A model generated the notes under the pieces. The model worked only from the letters and a program-made list of their open reading frames with translations. It did no database searches and was not told the origin of the DNA. A program made the position numbers and the translations under genes. DNA of 64,000 nt from Flavobacteriales bacterium (GTDB lineage Bacteria; Bacteroidota; Bacteroidia; Flavobacteriales_F; PHOS-HE28): positions 22,948-86,947 of the forward strand of contig JADZAC010000036.1 of the NCBI GenBank assembly GCA_020852835.1. The letters run 5' to 3'. Shown here piece by piece: positions 19,469-56,829 of this stretch (position 1 is its first letter; each line of letters starts with the position of its first letter).

Positions 19469-19945
19469 GTGCCCATGCCCGAAGCGACCGCCGCCGTTGA
19501 GAGTTCCCACCTCCTGTTGTTCTTCCACAGCGTGCTGCGCTGGGTCTTGGTGGCCATGGTGGCGGTGGCGGGCTTTGCGGCGTTGGCCGGGGCCGTGCGG
19601 AAAAGCCCGCTGATGAACTGGCACCGTGGTGCCGCCATCTGGGCCATGGTGCTCTGCCATGTGCAATTGGCCTTGGGCATGCTGCTCTACGGCACGGACA
19701 TCGCATCGGGAACCTTCCGCCGGATGACCCCGGATGCGGCGCGTTACTGGGAGCTCGAACATGCCGGCCTGATGCTCTTGGCGATCGCCCTGGTCACTGC
19801 GGGCCGAATGGCCAGCAAGCGGGCCCGGACCGAAGAAGGAAAGCAACTCCGCGTGGCCATCTTCTACCTGGCTGCACTGGTGCTGCTCTTGTTGAAGACG
19901 CCTTGGTGGTTCACCGCCATGGGCGAAGGACGTGGTTGGATATGA
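19469..19945 (+). CDS. Small multi-TM membrane protein
   Basis: 158 aa, about 4 hydrophobic helices with conserved-looking His residues (FFHSVLRW, NWHRGAA, LCHVQLALG). Confidence 0.65.
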   Translation: MPMPEATAAVESSHLLLFFHSVLRWVLVAMVAVAGFAALAGAVRKSPLMNWHRGAAIWAMVLCHVQLALGMLLYGTDIASGTFRRMTPDAARYWELEHAGLMLLAIALVTAGRMASKRARTEEGKQLRVAIFYLAALVLLLLKTPWWFTAMGEGRGWI

Positions 19946-20048
19946 ACCACCTGGCATCGCCTGCCCCGGTCCGCTGCATGGGGCGCCATGCGCCACGGCA
20001 CACCATGGTGCCCGCCGCACTCGCAGCCGGAAAGCCGTTCACCCGATC

Positions 20049-21275
20049 ATGATCGAACCCAAGGACAACCGTTTATCTGCTGAGAGCGCCGTGCTCGTCG
20101 GCCTGGCCACCGAACGCCAATCCGCGGCACAGGTGGAGGAATACTTGGATGAACTCGCTTTCCTCGCCCACACTGCCGGCATCGCCACGGTGAAGCGCTT
20201 CATGCAGAAATTGCAGCGCCCCGACGGCAAGTTCCACATCGGCTCAGGCAAGCTCGCCGAGGTGAAGGCCTGGATGGAGGAACATGCGCCCAAGGCCTGT
20301 GTGATCTTCGATGATGAACTGACGCCCGCCCAGCAGCGAAACGTGGAGAAGGAACTGGGGCGCCCCGTGCTCGACCGCCCGCGCCTGATCCTGGACATCT
20401 TCGCAGGCCGTGCACGGACTGCCCACGCCAAGACCCAGGTGGAGCTGGCCCAGTACGAGTACATGCTGCCGCGCCTCACCAAGCTGTGGACCCACCTGGA
20501 ACGCCAGCGCGGCGGCACGGGCACACGCGGCGGTGCCGGTGAAAAGGAAATTGAGACCGACCGCCGTTTGGTCCGCGACCGCATCAGCCTCCTTAAGGCG
20601 CAACTGCGCGACATCGACAAGCAGAAAGCCACCCAGCGCGGCAACCGCGGCAAATTGGTGCGCGTGGCCTTGGTGGGCTACACCAACGTGGGCAAAAGCA
20701 CGCTGATGAATTTGCTGAGCAAGAGCGACGTCTTCGCCGAGAACAAGCTCTTCGCCACGCTGGACACCACGGTGCGCAAAGTGGTCTTAGGCAACCTGCC
20801 CTTTCTGCTCAGCGATACCGTGGGCTTCATCCGCAAGCTGCCGCACCAGCTCATCGAAAGCTTCAAGAGCACCCTGGATGAAACCCGCGAGGCCGACCTG
20901 CTGATGCACGTGGTGGACATCAGCCACCCGCAGTTCGAGAGCCAGTACCACACCGTGCGCCAAACCCTGGAGGAGATCGGCGCCGGCGGAAAGCCCACGA
21001 TCGTGGTCTTCAACAAGATCGACGCTTACCGGCCCGCCCCGCACGACCCGCACGACCTGGCGCCCAAGCGTGAGGACCAATTTTCATTGGCGGAATTGCA
21101 ACAAACGTGGATGGCCCGTATCGCCGGGGATGAGGAGGCCATCTTCATCTCCGCCGTCCGCAAGGACAACATCGACGGGCTGCGCAAGCTGATGTATGAC
21201 CGTGTAAAAGAGATCCACCTGGCGCGCTATCCCTACGAGAAGGACCTGTTGTGGCAGGAATGGACGGTGGAGTAG
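20049..21275 (+). CDS. hflX: GTPase HflX
   Basis: GGAGEKEIETDRRLVRDRISLLK, VALVGYTNVGKSTLMN, LFATLDTTVRK, VFNKIDAY; start MIEPKDNRLSAES. Confidence 0.95.
   Translation: MIEPKDNRLSAESAVLVGLATERQSAAQVEEYLDELAFLAHTAGIATVKRFMQKLQRPDGKFHIGSGKLAEVKAWMEEHAPKACVIFDDELTPAQQRNVEKELGRPVLDRPRLILDIFAGRARTAHAKTQVELAQYEYMLPRLTKLWTHLERQRGGTGTRGGAGEKEIETDRRLVRDRISLLKAQLRDIDKQKATQRGNRGKLVRVALVGYTNVGKSTLMNLLSKSDVFAENKLFATLDTTVRKVVLGNLPFLLSDTVGFIRKLPHQLIESFKSTLDETREADLLMHVVDISHPQFESQYHTVRQTLEEIGAGGKPTIVVFNKIDAYRPAPHDPHDLAPKREDQFSLAELQQTWMARIAGDEEAIFISAVRKDNIDGLRKLMYDRVKEIHLARYPYEKDLLWQEWTVE
21181..21275 (+). repeat. hflX 3'-end, copy 1 (in intact gene)
   Basis: Aligns without gaps to 21836-21930 (offset 655), roughly 87% identity by eye; separated by hicBA. 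Confidence 0.85.
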
Positions 21276-21297: not shown

Positions 21298-21528
21298 CTA
21301 TTCTTCCAAGGCGGAAACGAATGTTTCCTGGGTGACTTGGATCTCGTTCAAGATCTTGCGGATCAACGGACGGCTGATGTCTTGGCCCTTGTGGTGCGAC
21401 AACGTGGTATAGCGCCCATCGGGATGGCGGTAAAACACGTGGCTGCCTTTCTGTCTGATCACTTGAAAACCCCATTTCAGCAGAACACGCTCGAAGGTCC
21501 GCGCATCCACAATGGGGAGCTTGCTCAT
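21298..21528 (-). CDS. hicA: HicA-family mRNA interferase toxin
   Basis: 76 aa; LLKWGFQVIRQKGSHVFYRHPDGRYTTLSHHKGQDISRPLIRKIL, dsRBD-like HicA motif. Confidence 0.9.
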   Translation of the reverse strand: MSKLPIVDARTFERVLLKWGFQVIRQKGSHVFYRHPDGRYTTLSHHKGQDISRPLIRKILNEIQVTQETFVSALEE

Positions 21529-21752
21529 ACTGCCACGGACAAAGTTTGCAAGCCCACAAATTCGGGAAGTGCCTTGATGTCGGCTGCGTTCATCTCCTCC
21601 AAGCAGAGTTCCAATACCTCCTTCAAGTTGGCCTGCAGTTCATCCAGCCCTTTGGCCTGGGTATGTGCGCCGGGGATGCTGGGGACCATGCCGATGTACA
21701 GGCCTGTCTCAGGGTCACGTTCAATATGGGCGGTGAACTGCAGATGGCGCAT
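21525..21752 (-). CDS. hicB: HicB-family antitoxin
   Basis: MRHLQFTAHIERDPETGLYIGMVPSIPGAHTQAKGLDELQANLKEVLELCLEE; overlaps hicA by 4 nt. Confidence 0.9.
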   Translation of the reverse strand: MRHLQFTAHIERDPETGLYIGMVPSIPGAHTQAKGLDELQANLKEVLELCLEEMNAADIKALPEFVGLQTLSVAV

Positions 21753-21835
21753 GTGCTGCACTTTTTTCAAAGATAGGCCATTCCGGGCCAACAAACCCGG
21801 CGATCCTGCCGCTCGCAGTGATGGCTTCGACCAGC

Positions 21836-21930
21836 TGCGCAAGCTGATGTACGAGCACGTGAAGGCCATCCACCTGGCGCGCTATCCTTACGAGAAGGAC
21901 CTGTTGTGGCAGGAATGGGCGGTGGAGTGA
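21836..21930 (+). pseudogene. Duplicated hflX 3'-end remnant
   Basis: Encodes LRKLMYEHVKAIHLARYPYEKDLLWQEWAVE* versus LRKLMYDRVKEIHLARYPYEKDLLWQEWTVE* in hflX. Confidence 0.85.
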
Positions 21931-38104: not shown

Positions 38105-38151
38105 CGGGGTCAAAGTTCGTACGGGAATTTTATTGCGGGGAAATGCAGTTA

Positions 38152-38263
38152 CCGCCAAGACTCCAAGAGCGCCAAGGGTATGGAGTTGCAATTTCCGCCA
38201 AGACGCCAAGAGCGCCAAGGTTATGGAGTTGCGGTTACCGCCAAAACGCCAAGAGTGCCAAGG
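38152..38263. repeat. Tandem array (3 units, 43-bp period) of CCGCCAAGACGCCAAGAGCGCCAAG repeat (family B)
   Basis: Units begin at 38152, 38195 and 38238; unit ccgccaagacgccaagagcgccaaggttatggagttgcggtta. Confidence 0.9.
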
Positions 38264-38303
38264 ATACAACAGCTACGCTACCAAGAGCTCCTAGAGCAAT
38301 ACG

Positions 38304-38722: not shown

Positions 38723-38858
38723 TATGCGCACTTTGCGCCTTGGCGGTGAAAGAATTCCAGAAGCCCTGTTCTCCTTGGCGCACTTTGCGCCTTGGCGGTG
38801 AAAGAATTCCAGAAGCCCTGTTCTTCTTGGCGCTCTTGGCGCCTTGGCGGTGAAAGAT
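38723..38858. repeat. Tandem array (about 2.6 units, 52-bp period) of the family B repeat in the opposite orientation
   Basis: Units begin near 38723, 38775 and 38827; cttggcgctcttggcgccttggcggtgaaag is the reverse complement of the array at 38152. Confidence 0.9.
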
Positions 38859-53953: not shown

Positions 53954-54125
53954 TGGTTCGGATCCCCTCGCCATGAACTACCTCCGAGCATCCCGAAGGG
54001 TTGGTTGAGGGCCGGAGGCTCAAGCCCAACATGGGCGGTCGGTCGTTTTTTCAGCGGGCCGCATGTGCGTAGCTTTGGTGGGGATCGGCGAACCCCGCCG
54101 GGCCAGTTGAGTGAATACGCGAATG

Positions 54126-55082
54126 AGCAAGACACTGTCCAGATCGATCATCAAGGCCGACCTGAACGGCCACGGCACCAATGGTGCTGCCAAGAACGCC
54201 GACCGCCTCCCCGTGATGAAGACCTACAAGATCTACATCGGCGGCAAGTTCCCGCGCACCGAGAGCGGTAGGTACTACCAGCCCACGGGTACTGATGGCA
54301 AGCCCTTGGCCAACGTTTGCCGCGGCAGCCGCAAGGACGTACGCGATGCCGTGGTGGCCGCGCGCGGTGCTGTGGGTGGTTGGGCTTCGCGCAGTGCATT
54401 CAATCGGGGGCAGATCCTTTACCGCATCGGCGAGATGCTGGAGGGCCGCAGCGCGCAGTTCGTGCATGAGCTGGTGCTGCATGGGGCCACGCAGAAGCAG
54501 GCCGAGGCCGAGGTGGCCCTGGCGATCGACCGCTGGATCCACTACGCCGGCTGGTGCGACAAGTATCAGGCGCTCTTCAGCAGCGTGAACCCGGTGAACA
54601 CCTCGCACTTCAACTTCAGTGTGCTGGAGCCCACCGGCGTGGTGGGCATCATGAGCGGCGGGAGCAATGGCCTGTTGGAACTGGTCTCACTGATCGCCCC
54701 GGTGATCGCGGGCGGCAACACCTGTGTGGTGGTGGCCAGCGAGAAGCATCCACTGCCCGCAGTGACCTTCACGGAAGTGCTCGCCACCAGCGACCTGCCC
54801 GGCGGCGTGGTGAACCTGCTCACCGGCTTCCGCAGCGAACTGCTCAAGCCGCTGGTGTCGCACATGGACATCAACGCCGTGGTGTGCGCACAACCCACGA
54901 AGGAGGAGCGGCAGATGCTGGACACCGAGGCCGCCGCGAACATGAAGCGCGTGGTGGTGCCCAAGGTGAAGGACTGGTCCACGACGGAGGGCCAAAGCCC
55001 GTACCTCATCCTGGACACCCAAGAGGTGAAGACCACCTGGCACCCGATCGAACGCGGGCAGGGCGGGGGTGGAGGGTATTGA
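54126..55082 (+). CDS. Aldehyde dehydrogenase family protein (short)
   Basis: YKIYIGGKFPRTESGRYYQP, VLEPTGVVGIMSGGSNGLLELVSLIAPVIAGGNTCVVVASEKHPLPAVTFTEVL. Confidence 0.88.
   Translation, partial: SKTLSRSIIKADLNGHGTNGAAKNADRLPVMKTYKIYIGGKFPRTESGRYYQPTGTDGKPLANVCRGSRKDVRDAVVAARGAVGGWASRSAFNRGQILYRIGEMLEGRSAQFVHELVLHGATQKQAEAEVALAIDRWIHYAGWCDKYQALFSSVNPVNTSHFNFSVLEPTGVVGIMSGGSNGLLELVSLIAPVIAGGNTCVVVASEKHPLPAVTFTEVLATSDLPGGVVNLLTGFRSELLKPLVSHMDINAVVCAQPTKEERQMLDTEAAANMKRVVVPKVKDWSTTEGQSPYLILDTQEVKTTWHPIERGQGGGGGY
55015..55082 (+). repeat. ALDH 3'-end, copy 1 (in gene)
   Basis: Gap-free match to 55667-55734 (offset 652); 58 of 60 nt identical over 55023-55082. Confidence 0.92.
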
Positions 55083-55106
55083 ACGTTATCTTTGAGATAC
55101 TCGACC

Positions 55107-55280
55107 ATGACCACGATCGTCAAACGCACGACTACCCGAAAGGAGCTGACCGCCCTTCTGAAAGGGAAGCAGCGAAGGCGCAGGAAGAAGGGTGTGGATG
55201 TGAAGAGCTTTGCGGGCAAGCTCAAGTTGGAGGGCGATCCGCTGGAGATCCAGAAGCGAATGCGCGATGGATGGAAGTAG
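55107..55280 (+). CDS. Putative antitoxin (DUF2281/VapB-like small protein)
   Basis: MTTIVKRTTTRKELTALLKGKQRRRRKKGVDVKSFAGKLKLEGDPLEIQKRMRDGWK; overlaps PIN gene; TATCTTTG box 12 nt upstream. Confidence 0.75.
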   Translation: MTTIVKRTTTRKELTALLKGKQRRRRKKGVDVKSFAGKLKLEGDPLEIQKRMRDGWK

Positions 55281-55640
55281 GCTGTTGGTCGATACCAACA
55301 TCATTCTCTATGCGCTGAAGGTGATAAAGCGCTGACCGATCTTATTGATGGACAAGAACTTTTCATCTCCTTCGTAACCCGTATCGAGTTGCTGAGTTTC
55401 CCGAAGATCGATGCGGCCGGTGTCGAGCTTATCGAGCGTTTCCTGCAACAGGTTCCAGTGGTCGAGAGCAGTCCGGTGATCAACGCGGATGCGATCTACT
55501 TGCGACGCAAGTCGGGACTCGAAGTGCCCGATGCCATCATTGCAGCAAGTGCGCGTTTCCTTGGCGTTCGATTGATGACCGTCGACAAGGATTTCAAGAA
55601 GGTCGAAGAGGAGTTGGATCTTTTGCTGTACACGAAATGA
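55267..55640 (+). pseudogene. PIN-domain (VapC-like) toxin with single-base frameshift
   Basis: MDGSRLLVDTNIILYALK then frameshift (aag|gtgataaag); +1 base restores KGDKALTDLIDGQELFISFVTRIELLSFPKIDAAGVELIERFLQQ...LEVPDAIIAASARFLGVRLMTVDKDFKKVE. Confidence 0.88.
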
Positions 55641-55666
55641 ACCCATGGCTTCGAACCACTGTCAAT

Positions 55667-55734
55667 ACACCCCGGAAGTGAAGACCACCTGGCACCCGAT
55701 CGAACGCGGGCAGGGTGGGGGTGGAGGGTATTGA
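55667..55734 (+). pseudogene. Duplicated ALDH 3'-end remnant
   Basis: Encodes NTPEVKTTWHPIERGQGGGGGY* versus DTQEVKTTWHPIERGQGGGGGY* in the ALDH gene. Confidence 0.92.
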
Positions 55735-55740
55735 CGGACC

Positions 55741-56271
55741 ATGCGGTTCCTCAAGTGGCTCCTGCTTGGTACGATCACATTGCTGGTCGGGGGTTGGATG
55801 TGCCGAGGACCGTTGTTCCGAAGTATCGTTCGCTATCATGTGGTTGGTGAGCGAGCGGCCATCAAGAAGGACGGCGCACCGGGATCGGTGGCCGCGAAGG
55901 TGGATGGCGTCCTCCAAGCGGCACTGGACACCACGGCGGACCGCCTTCATTTCAGCACGGGCCGAGTGACGAGCGATCCACGGGAGCTCGTTCCTGGAAG
56001 TGCGGCGAATTGCATCGGCTATGCGGCACTGTTCGCCGCGCTTGTTGAAGAAGACCTGGCTCGCGCCGAGCTGGCGGATCGGTATGCTGTACAGCAGGTC
56101 GTCAGTAAGCTCCACATCGGTTCATGGAACATGCATTCCCTGTTCGATGACCCGTTCTGGAAGGATCACGACATCGTACGCATCACGGACAAAGCGACCG
56201 GCACGACGATCCTGATCGATCCCGTCCTGTATGATGTGGCCGGGATCGATCGCGTGCAAGGCGGGCCGTGA
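55741..56271 (+). CDS. Hypothetical membrane-anchored, transglutaminase-like protein
   Basis: 176 aa; NCIGYAALFAALVEE, GSWNMHSLFDDPFWKDHDIVRI, TILIDPVLYD suggest Cys/His/Asp arrangement. Confidence 0.6.
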   Translation: MRFLKWLLLGTITLLVGGWMCRGPLFRSIVRYHVVGERAAIKKDGAPGSVAAKVDGVLQAALDTTADRLHFSTGRVTSDPRELVPGSAANCIGYAALFAALVEEDLARAELADRYAVQQVVSKLHIGSWNMHSLFDDPFWKDHDIVRITDKATGTTILIDPVLYDVAGIDRVQGGP

Positions 56272-56316
56272 CCTCGGGGGCAACGGTCCTGCCCATCGCA
56301 TCGCGACCTTTGTTGC

Positions 56317-56829
56317 ATGGGGACGAATGAACGCACCGGTTCCGGACCGGTCCCGCTGCCCGCGTATTTCGGCGCCAGCTCCAAGGCGGATGTTTTCTTG
56401 CATCCGTACACGAACGGCGGTAGGCCCATCCGCACGCAGGTGGTGCTTACGCATCACTTGCTGTGCCTGGTACAGGAAGGAGAGAAAGAAGTGATCGTGG
56501 CTGGCCACCGCGAACTGGATGCCATCAACGAACCCGTGCCAGAAGCGGTCAAACGGTACGAGAAGGGCAACAGCATGGGTGCGACGGTGACGCGTTGCGA
56601 AGCGCTGCGTCCACTGGGCTTCACCCGGAGGGGCGATCCGCAACGCCTCTCCGAAGTGGTGATCGAACTGAATGAACGCGGCAAGGACGTGCTGTTGGTG
56701 TTGATGCATGAACGGCTGCCGGACGGCAACGACCTGCTCGGTGTCTCCGGTGGCTGGCACACGCACCTCGACATCCTGGTGGAGCATTTGAACGGCCGCG
56801 AGCACCGGGATCTCGGAGTTCGCATGTGA
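56317..56829 (+). CDS. SRPBCC/AHSA1-like hypothetical protein
   Basis: 170 aa; LIELNERGKDVLLVLMHERLP...GVSGGWHTHLDILVEHLNGRE C-terminal AHSA1-like motif. Confidence 0.5.
   Translation: MGTNERTGSGPVPLPAYFGASSKADVFLHPYTNGGRPIRTQVVLTHHLLCLVQEGEKEVIVAGHRELDAINEPVPEAVKRYEKGNSMGATVTRCEALRPLGFTRRGDPQRLSEVVIELNERGKDVLLVLMHERLPDGNDLLGVSGGWHTHLDILVEHLNGREHRDLGVRM

Follow-up and report, generated by a model that had tools for sequence, protein, structure and literature searches.

Toxin-antitoxin cassettes bounded by duplicated ends of conserved genes in a Flavobacteriales genus: a layout that suggests spread by recombination

Results

A PIN cassette between two copies of an aldehyde dehydrogenase gene end

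The subject of this analysis is a stretch of 64,000 nucleotides from a Flavobacteriales bacterium (GenBank assembly GCA_020852835.1, contig JADZAC010000036.1, positions 22,948 to 86,947; hereafter the window), in which the 3' end of an aldehyde dehydrogenase (ALDH) gene is present twice, with a PIN-type toxin-antitoxin (TA) pair in between. Comparison with other genomes of the genus suggests that this locus belongs to a wider class of small TA cassettes on the chromosome that are bounded by the duplicated end of a conserved gene and that probably spread by homologous recombination. In this class the module stands right after the stop codon of its host gene or, in occasional cases, ahead of the start codon, and a terminal piece of the coding sequence, about 40-220 nt long, is repeated on the far side. 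The recurring layout suggests transfer of such modules between species through recombination within gene ends that they have borrowed, with no transposase or integrase of their own. Genomes are referred to below by G numbers, G000 being that of the window, and compared loci by L numbers.

The ALDH gene (54111-55082, + strand, 323 aa; PF00171, E 4.7e-35) is present in almost every genome of the genus, 38 of 39 relatives having a match. Its functional 3' end (tail copy 1, 55015-55082, +) closes with the gene's TGA. As delimited by repeat listing and tail alignment, the second copy (55667-55734, +) is a bare remnant of this 3' end, as a first, sequence-only reading of the window had described it, and terminates in the same TGA. 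The two copies are 68 nt long, lie at an offset of 652 and are identical at 64 of 68 positions (94%). The 58 matches out of 60 between 55023-55082 and 55675-55734, and the ACACCC farther out (at 55015 and 55667), were likewise found as that reading had given them. Direct repeats of 30 nt or more with copies no farther than 5 kb apart form only five families in the whole window, the ALDH pair being one of them.

The identity of the tails is real and partly reflects gene conservation. The ALDH tail is conserved at the nucleotide level across the genus, so that 58 matches out of 60 are no proof by themselves of a recent duplication. Compared with copy 1, the uninterrupted tail of G042 shows 5 differences in 68 positions and that of G053 shows 11, and a recent duplication read from this identity was dropped because the relatives' single tails are almost equally similar.

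Between the tails, an open reading frame (ORF) of 57 aa (55107-55280, +) that begins MTTIVKRTTTRKELTALLKG precedes a PIN-domain, VapC-like gene (55270-55640, +). The ORF is basic, stands upstream of PIN in four genomes (homologues in G052, G043 and G022) and is a putative antitoxin; it had no match in the Pfam, NCBIfam or PADLOC models. The C-terminal part of the PIN gene (55389-55640) matches PF01850 (E 7.8e-8), and the homologue of G052, an intact frame of 131 aa, matches the NCBIfam VapC model below its cut-off (E 1.3e-7). The pair is a predicted VapBC-like type II TA system with a putative toxin activity. In the window a single frameshift near 55320 disrupts the PIN frame; the announced layout of a TA cassette between ALDH tails holds for the antitoxin-like ORF and the PIN gene, with the toxin frame itself broken. 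Downstream of the remnant lies a native gene of 176 aa (55741-56271, +), which directly follows the ALDH tail in the cassette-free genomes G042 and G053.

PIN copies at ALDH are broken in three of the four genomes, by the frameshift in G000 (window 55270-55640), by another frame break in G043 (L334, 9178-9486) and by truncation in G022 (L041, 5400-5450). The antitoxin-like ORF is open beside the broken copies, and such ORFs may be solitary antitoxins.

A tract of 2.4 kb that holds the ALDH cassette is 94.5% identical between G000 (54123-56518) and G052 (L331, 4670-7065), whereas the hflX genes of the same two genomes are only 77% identical. A short tract of such similarity against this background is as expected if a cassette-bearing segment crossed between species, and it likely represents a recent inter-species recombination tract.

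The hflX/hicBA locus has the same layout

The sequence-only reading had compared the ALDH cassette with the hflX/hicBA locus of the window, and the likeness proved real: the spacing is 652 at ALDH and 655 at hflX, and the repeats measure 68 and 121 nt. The host gene encodes the GTPase HflX (19932-21275, +; Pfam GTP-bdg_N, GTP-bdg_M and MMR_HSR1). Its tail copy 1 (21153-21275, +) is followed by a predicted HicA toxin (21298-21528, - strand; PF07927, E 5.2e-16), a HicB-like antitoxin (21525-21752, -; PF21748 and PF15919, both below cut-off, E 2.4e-5 and 1.7e-4) and the remnant tail copy 2 (21808-21930, +). The hicBA pair is oriented opposite to hflX. The repeat itself (21153-21273 and 21808-21928) is 121 nt long and 83% identical.

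Gene-end repeats are enriched at TA loci of the genus

Further TA loci bounded by host-gene tails, which the sequence-only reading had proposed to look for, were found in the genus. From 45 genomes, the 30 loci with the highest scores were taken for each of HicA, PIN and DUF4160. A locus was counted when its toxin gene was flanked by a direct repeat that ended at a neighbouring gene's stop, gene ends being those of ORF calls. As a control, 600 random windows of 3.2 kb were drawn from two near-complete genomes. Tail repeats flank 24 of the 90 TA loci, which are not fully independent as a few represent one site in related species (HicA 5/30, PIN 6/30, DUF4160/DhiT 13/30; DUF4160 matches the NCBIfam DhiT toxin model, though below cut-off), and 5 of the 600 random windows. 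This corresponds to a roughly 30-fold enrichment (Fisher p = 2e-18). Since so few random windows are flanked by tails and the ALDH tail pair has an E value of 5e-20 in self-BLAST, a chance origin of this pair is excluded.

Targeted loci and 800 kb of evenly spaced stretches from two other genomes were also covered. In these unbiased stretches of near-complete genomes, an acetyl-CoA synthetase tail bounds a RelBE pair in the one-contig genome G010 (L165), a 5' gene end is repeated around a ParDE pair (L177), and a repeat surrounds a PIN locus. According to Pfam and NCBIfam, the host genes encode NuoF, both methylmalonyl-CoA mutase subunits, SucB, a UvrD-type helicase, SAICAR synthase and acetyl-CoA synthetase. 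Together with ALDH and HflX, the cassette hosts are conserved genes, among them genes of nucleotide and energy metabolism, hflX and uvrD.

Strict targeting of gene tails was dropped as a rule because a few modules use gene heads (L177, L133 and L140). Several candidate cassettes were rejected. The repeats of L042 (2513-3171) and L046 (691-1667) are interspersed intergenic repeats of the genus genomes with a palindromic, REP-like core of the GCAGGGTCTCC type, and those of L143, L147, L156, L160 and L178 belong to paralogous or internally repetitive genes.

One gene end carries different modules, and some relatives have an uninterrupted tail

G000, G052 and G043 have the PIN pair at the ALDH tail. 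In G022 a truncated PIN gene links the antitoxin, as a fusion, with the middle of the downstream gene. The pair at this tail is DUF4160/DUF2442 in G017, G046 has a DUF4160 module there, and a single ALDH tail is found in most other relatives. At hflX, the tail bounds HicBA in G000 and a RelE-type (RelBE-like) pair in G018 and G042. Uninterrupted single tails, the lack of which would have told against the sequence-only reading by its own account, are present in G051 at hflX, in G042 and G053 at ALDH and in G042 at an S9 peptidase gene.

A conserved gene of 480 aa has a DUF4160/DUF2442 module at its end in G000, G051, G006 and G004. In G004 the arrangement is an array, tail-HicAB-tail-DhiTA-tail, with HicAB on the gene side of the older module. 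Similarly, a ParE-type module of G043 is gene-proximal to an older PIN module. A three-unit array with an integron-like layout was also noticed in G050 (L355, 1155-4087), where a ParE-type TA, a PIN TA and an ORF6N-like gene alternate with the four copies of a repeat of 149-206 nt. In G000 another ORF6N-like gene (L135, 2180-2848) separates the remnant tail of the DhiTA cassette from the downstream region; G006 lacks this gene there.

The tail copies differ as coding sequences do and at hflX are native/foreign hybrids

Homology between the copies ends at the stop codon: the next 30 nt show 3-17 matches, mostly near background. Third codon positions hold 141 of the 272 differences between copies (p = 2.6e-10 against one third). 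This share of 52% is a modest excess over the ~45% that a rough estimate gives for a remnant in neutral decay beside a gene under constraint (p = 0.014), and for this reason the comparison of hybrid tails is the stronger evidence.

The hflX tails of the window were compared with the uninterrupted tail of the sister genome G051, the flanks of which are ~94-96% identical. Copy 1 differs from it at 1 of 50 positions in its 5' part (native) and then at 10 of 73 (foreign; TAG stop, nearest to G050). Copy 2 shows the reverse order, with 17 differences in 60 positions (foreign) followed by 4 in 63 (native; TGA stop) and native downstream DNA. The exchange points differ in position between the copies, and the foreign stretches are unlike where they overlap. 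This suggests that the hflX donor already carried two different tails. At the peptidase site of G043, compared with that of G042, the in-gene tail matches at 54 of 69 positions (foreign) and the remnant at 67 of 69 (native). Neither at hflX, where each tail contains a segment foreign to G051, nor for the in-gene tail of G043 do both copies derive from the recipient's own target.

Discussion

A recombination route for the cassettes

The route that we favour would use the repeated gene end as the homology arm for incoming DNA. DNA of a related species, presumably acquired by natural uptake and carrying a gene tail and a TA module, with or without the second tail, would recombine with the recipient's copy of the gene through crossovers inside the tail. 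The host gene would stay complete, its tail now being hybrid or foreign, and what is left of the native tail would lie as a remnant beside its old downstream neighbour. Neither an integrase nor a transposase would be required and, because only the conserved gene must be shared, the units could pass between species of different gene order. Repeated rounds would stack new modules gene-proximally. Addiction to the TA pair would disfavour its loss through recombination between the repeats, although of the four PIN copies at ALDH three (G000, G043 and G022) are broken. Homology-facilitated illegitimate recombination and long target duplication are candidates for the making of the first tail-TA-tail unit.

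We tentatively propose, as a view that is credible and falls a little short of probable, that these cassettes form an integrase-free class of mobile TA systems, for which the borrowed end of a housekeeping gene is a species-portable landing pad where arrays grow and through which host genes repeatedly gain foreign C-terminal ends.

Several points weigh against the recombination route. The movement of cassettes is itself deduced from the comparison of genomes. About 60% of the sampled TA loci have no flanking repeat, from which it follows that other routes exist, and certain flanking repeats are non-genic. At the head-type PIN locus L110 (1400-2358), a 152-nt repeat with 98% identity apparently takes in ~87 nt upstream of the start codon, which looks like a plain long target duplication and not like a borrowed gene end. 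For the 5' segment of hflX copy 2, which is foreign, the compared genomes offer no close source, the nearest differing at 11 of 60 positions, and the 76-98% identity of remnants could alternatively stem from gene conversion between both tails. Finally, the strict tail signature is rare outside the genus, with 2 of 30 HicA loci and 2 of 30 DUF4160 loci in samples from across the phylum; the genus is thus unusually rich in it.

Alternative origins

Among the alternatives, the one that survives best, although we consider it unlikely, is a one-off event of homology-facilitated illegitimate recombination at each site, in which the gene pairs with incoming DNA on one side, end-joining takes place in the recipient's tail on the other, and the tails are by-products that play no later part in mobility. 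Such events would account for the foreign in-gene tail and native remnant of G043 and for the spared gene boundaries, and the G022 antitoxin that runs through a truncated PIN into the middle of the downstream gene has the look of one. They do not readily explain why G000, G051, G006 and G004 have the same module at the same gene end, and the hflX remnant, foreign in its 5' part, is better accommodated by the transfer of a ready-made tail-TA-tail unit.

Somewhat less plausible still is a long target duplication, by which the TA unit would insert in a transposon-like manner through a wide staggered cut and duplicate ~100 nt of target, both tails being the recipient's own and diverging later. Addiction modules are the cargo here as in the restriction-modification case discussed below, and the pairs of L057, L135 and L136 are 95-98% identical without codon-position bias. 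A duplication of the recipient's own target, however, would yield copies that are initially identical, a repeat that runs randomly past the stop and differences that are blind to codon position. Instead, homology stops at the stop codon and not at random distances beyond it, the differences are concentrated at third positions, and the hybrid hflX tails and the foreign in-gene tail at the G043 site contain sequence that the recipient's target would not have supplied.

It is improbable that an integrase acting in trans inserts the cassettes, as non-autonomous elements, site-specifically at gene 3' ends, the tail being the attachment site. It is true that the tandem stacking at one site and the restoration of the host gene by the tail repeat resemble integrase elements and integron arrays. 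On the other side, no recombinase ORF is present in the cassettes that were read, which with ~0.6 kb hold the TA pair only; targets and tails are mutually unrelated (ALDH, hflX, acsA, nuoF, sucB, uvrD, purC and others); tail length varies between about 45 and 220 nt; and the exchange points at hflX do not coincide. As regards other carriers, the cassette gave no phage match and only two weak plasmid matches, both within the ALDH part, and PADLOC returned no match among eight TA proteins.

An artefact of assembly or binning, or a local gene duplication unlinked to the TA module, is hardly credible: most of the genomes are fragmented metagenome assemblies, but the pattern is found in G010 (one contig) and G004 (four contigs) and its enrichment is centred on TA genes.

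Relation to known systems

The nearest published phenomenon is the insertion of restriction-modification systems, for which a long and variable target duplication has been proposed (Nobusato et al. 2000; Furuta et al. 2010; both as cited in PMC3874152 and PMC3031569). It resembles the present case in that an addiction-type pair without transposase lies between direct target repeats of ~100 bp and that the insertion was deduced from the comparison of related genomes. Repeats of this kind bound both modules of the window. Unlike in that phenomenon, the cargo here is a type II TA pair, the repeats end at the stop of conserved genes, the copies differ as coding sequences do, and the tails are native/foreign hybrids.

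Integrative elements of the tyrosine-integrase island type enter gene 3' ends and restore the gene. As in the cassettes, a gene tail is duplicated, the gene remains intact and the old tail is found at the far end; the TA cassettes differ by their size of ~0.6 kb without integrase, by their many unrelated targets and by the variable length of the repeat. Chromosomal integrons stack TA gene cassettes in arrays, and here too small TA units form arrays that grow at one end. The separator is instead the tail of the adjacent gene, and no integron integrase was seen, though attC and IntI were not searched for. Homology-facilitated illegitimate recombination in natural transformation is known mainly from rare laboratory events. 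It shares with our loci a single homologous anchor in a conserved gene beside which non-homologous DNA is inserted; here, in contrast, it would be recurrent and TA-rich, and its products would then spread as ready-made units.

The open full-text literature yielded no description of TA modules that lie between host-gene ends, subscription papers being mostly outside this search. There is a fair chance that the tail-TA-tail cassettes represent a mode of TA mobility in its own right, carried by recombination. TA biology has long lacked an account of the way in which short chromosomal modules spread when no transposon, plasmid or phage carries them. If the tails do act as homology arms, landing pads could be predicted from conserved gene ends and donors could be identified from hybrid tails. 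Insertions would then silently change the C-termini of conserved enzymes, and a bare gene tail in an annotation would be the footprint of a past or present TA insertion.

Outside the genus and other repeats

Outside the genus, a scan with a DUF4160 profile detected modules flanked by gltX tails in two Verrucomicrobia; in a Cytophagales genome it detected a repeat. DUF4160 genes of a further family of the phylum are surrounded by two or three copies of the tail of a gene of 138 aa (L402, L403 and L410), possibly an independent array. In G010, the tail of a rhodanese-like gene is repeated around an aspartic-protease-like ORF (L171, 10279-11453), so that the cargo is possibly not a TA pair. The window also contains short tandem repeats at 38139-38267 (three copies of a 43-nt unit) and 38726-38829 (two copies of a 52-nt unit).
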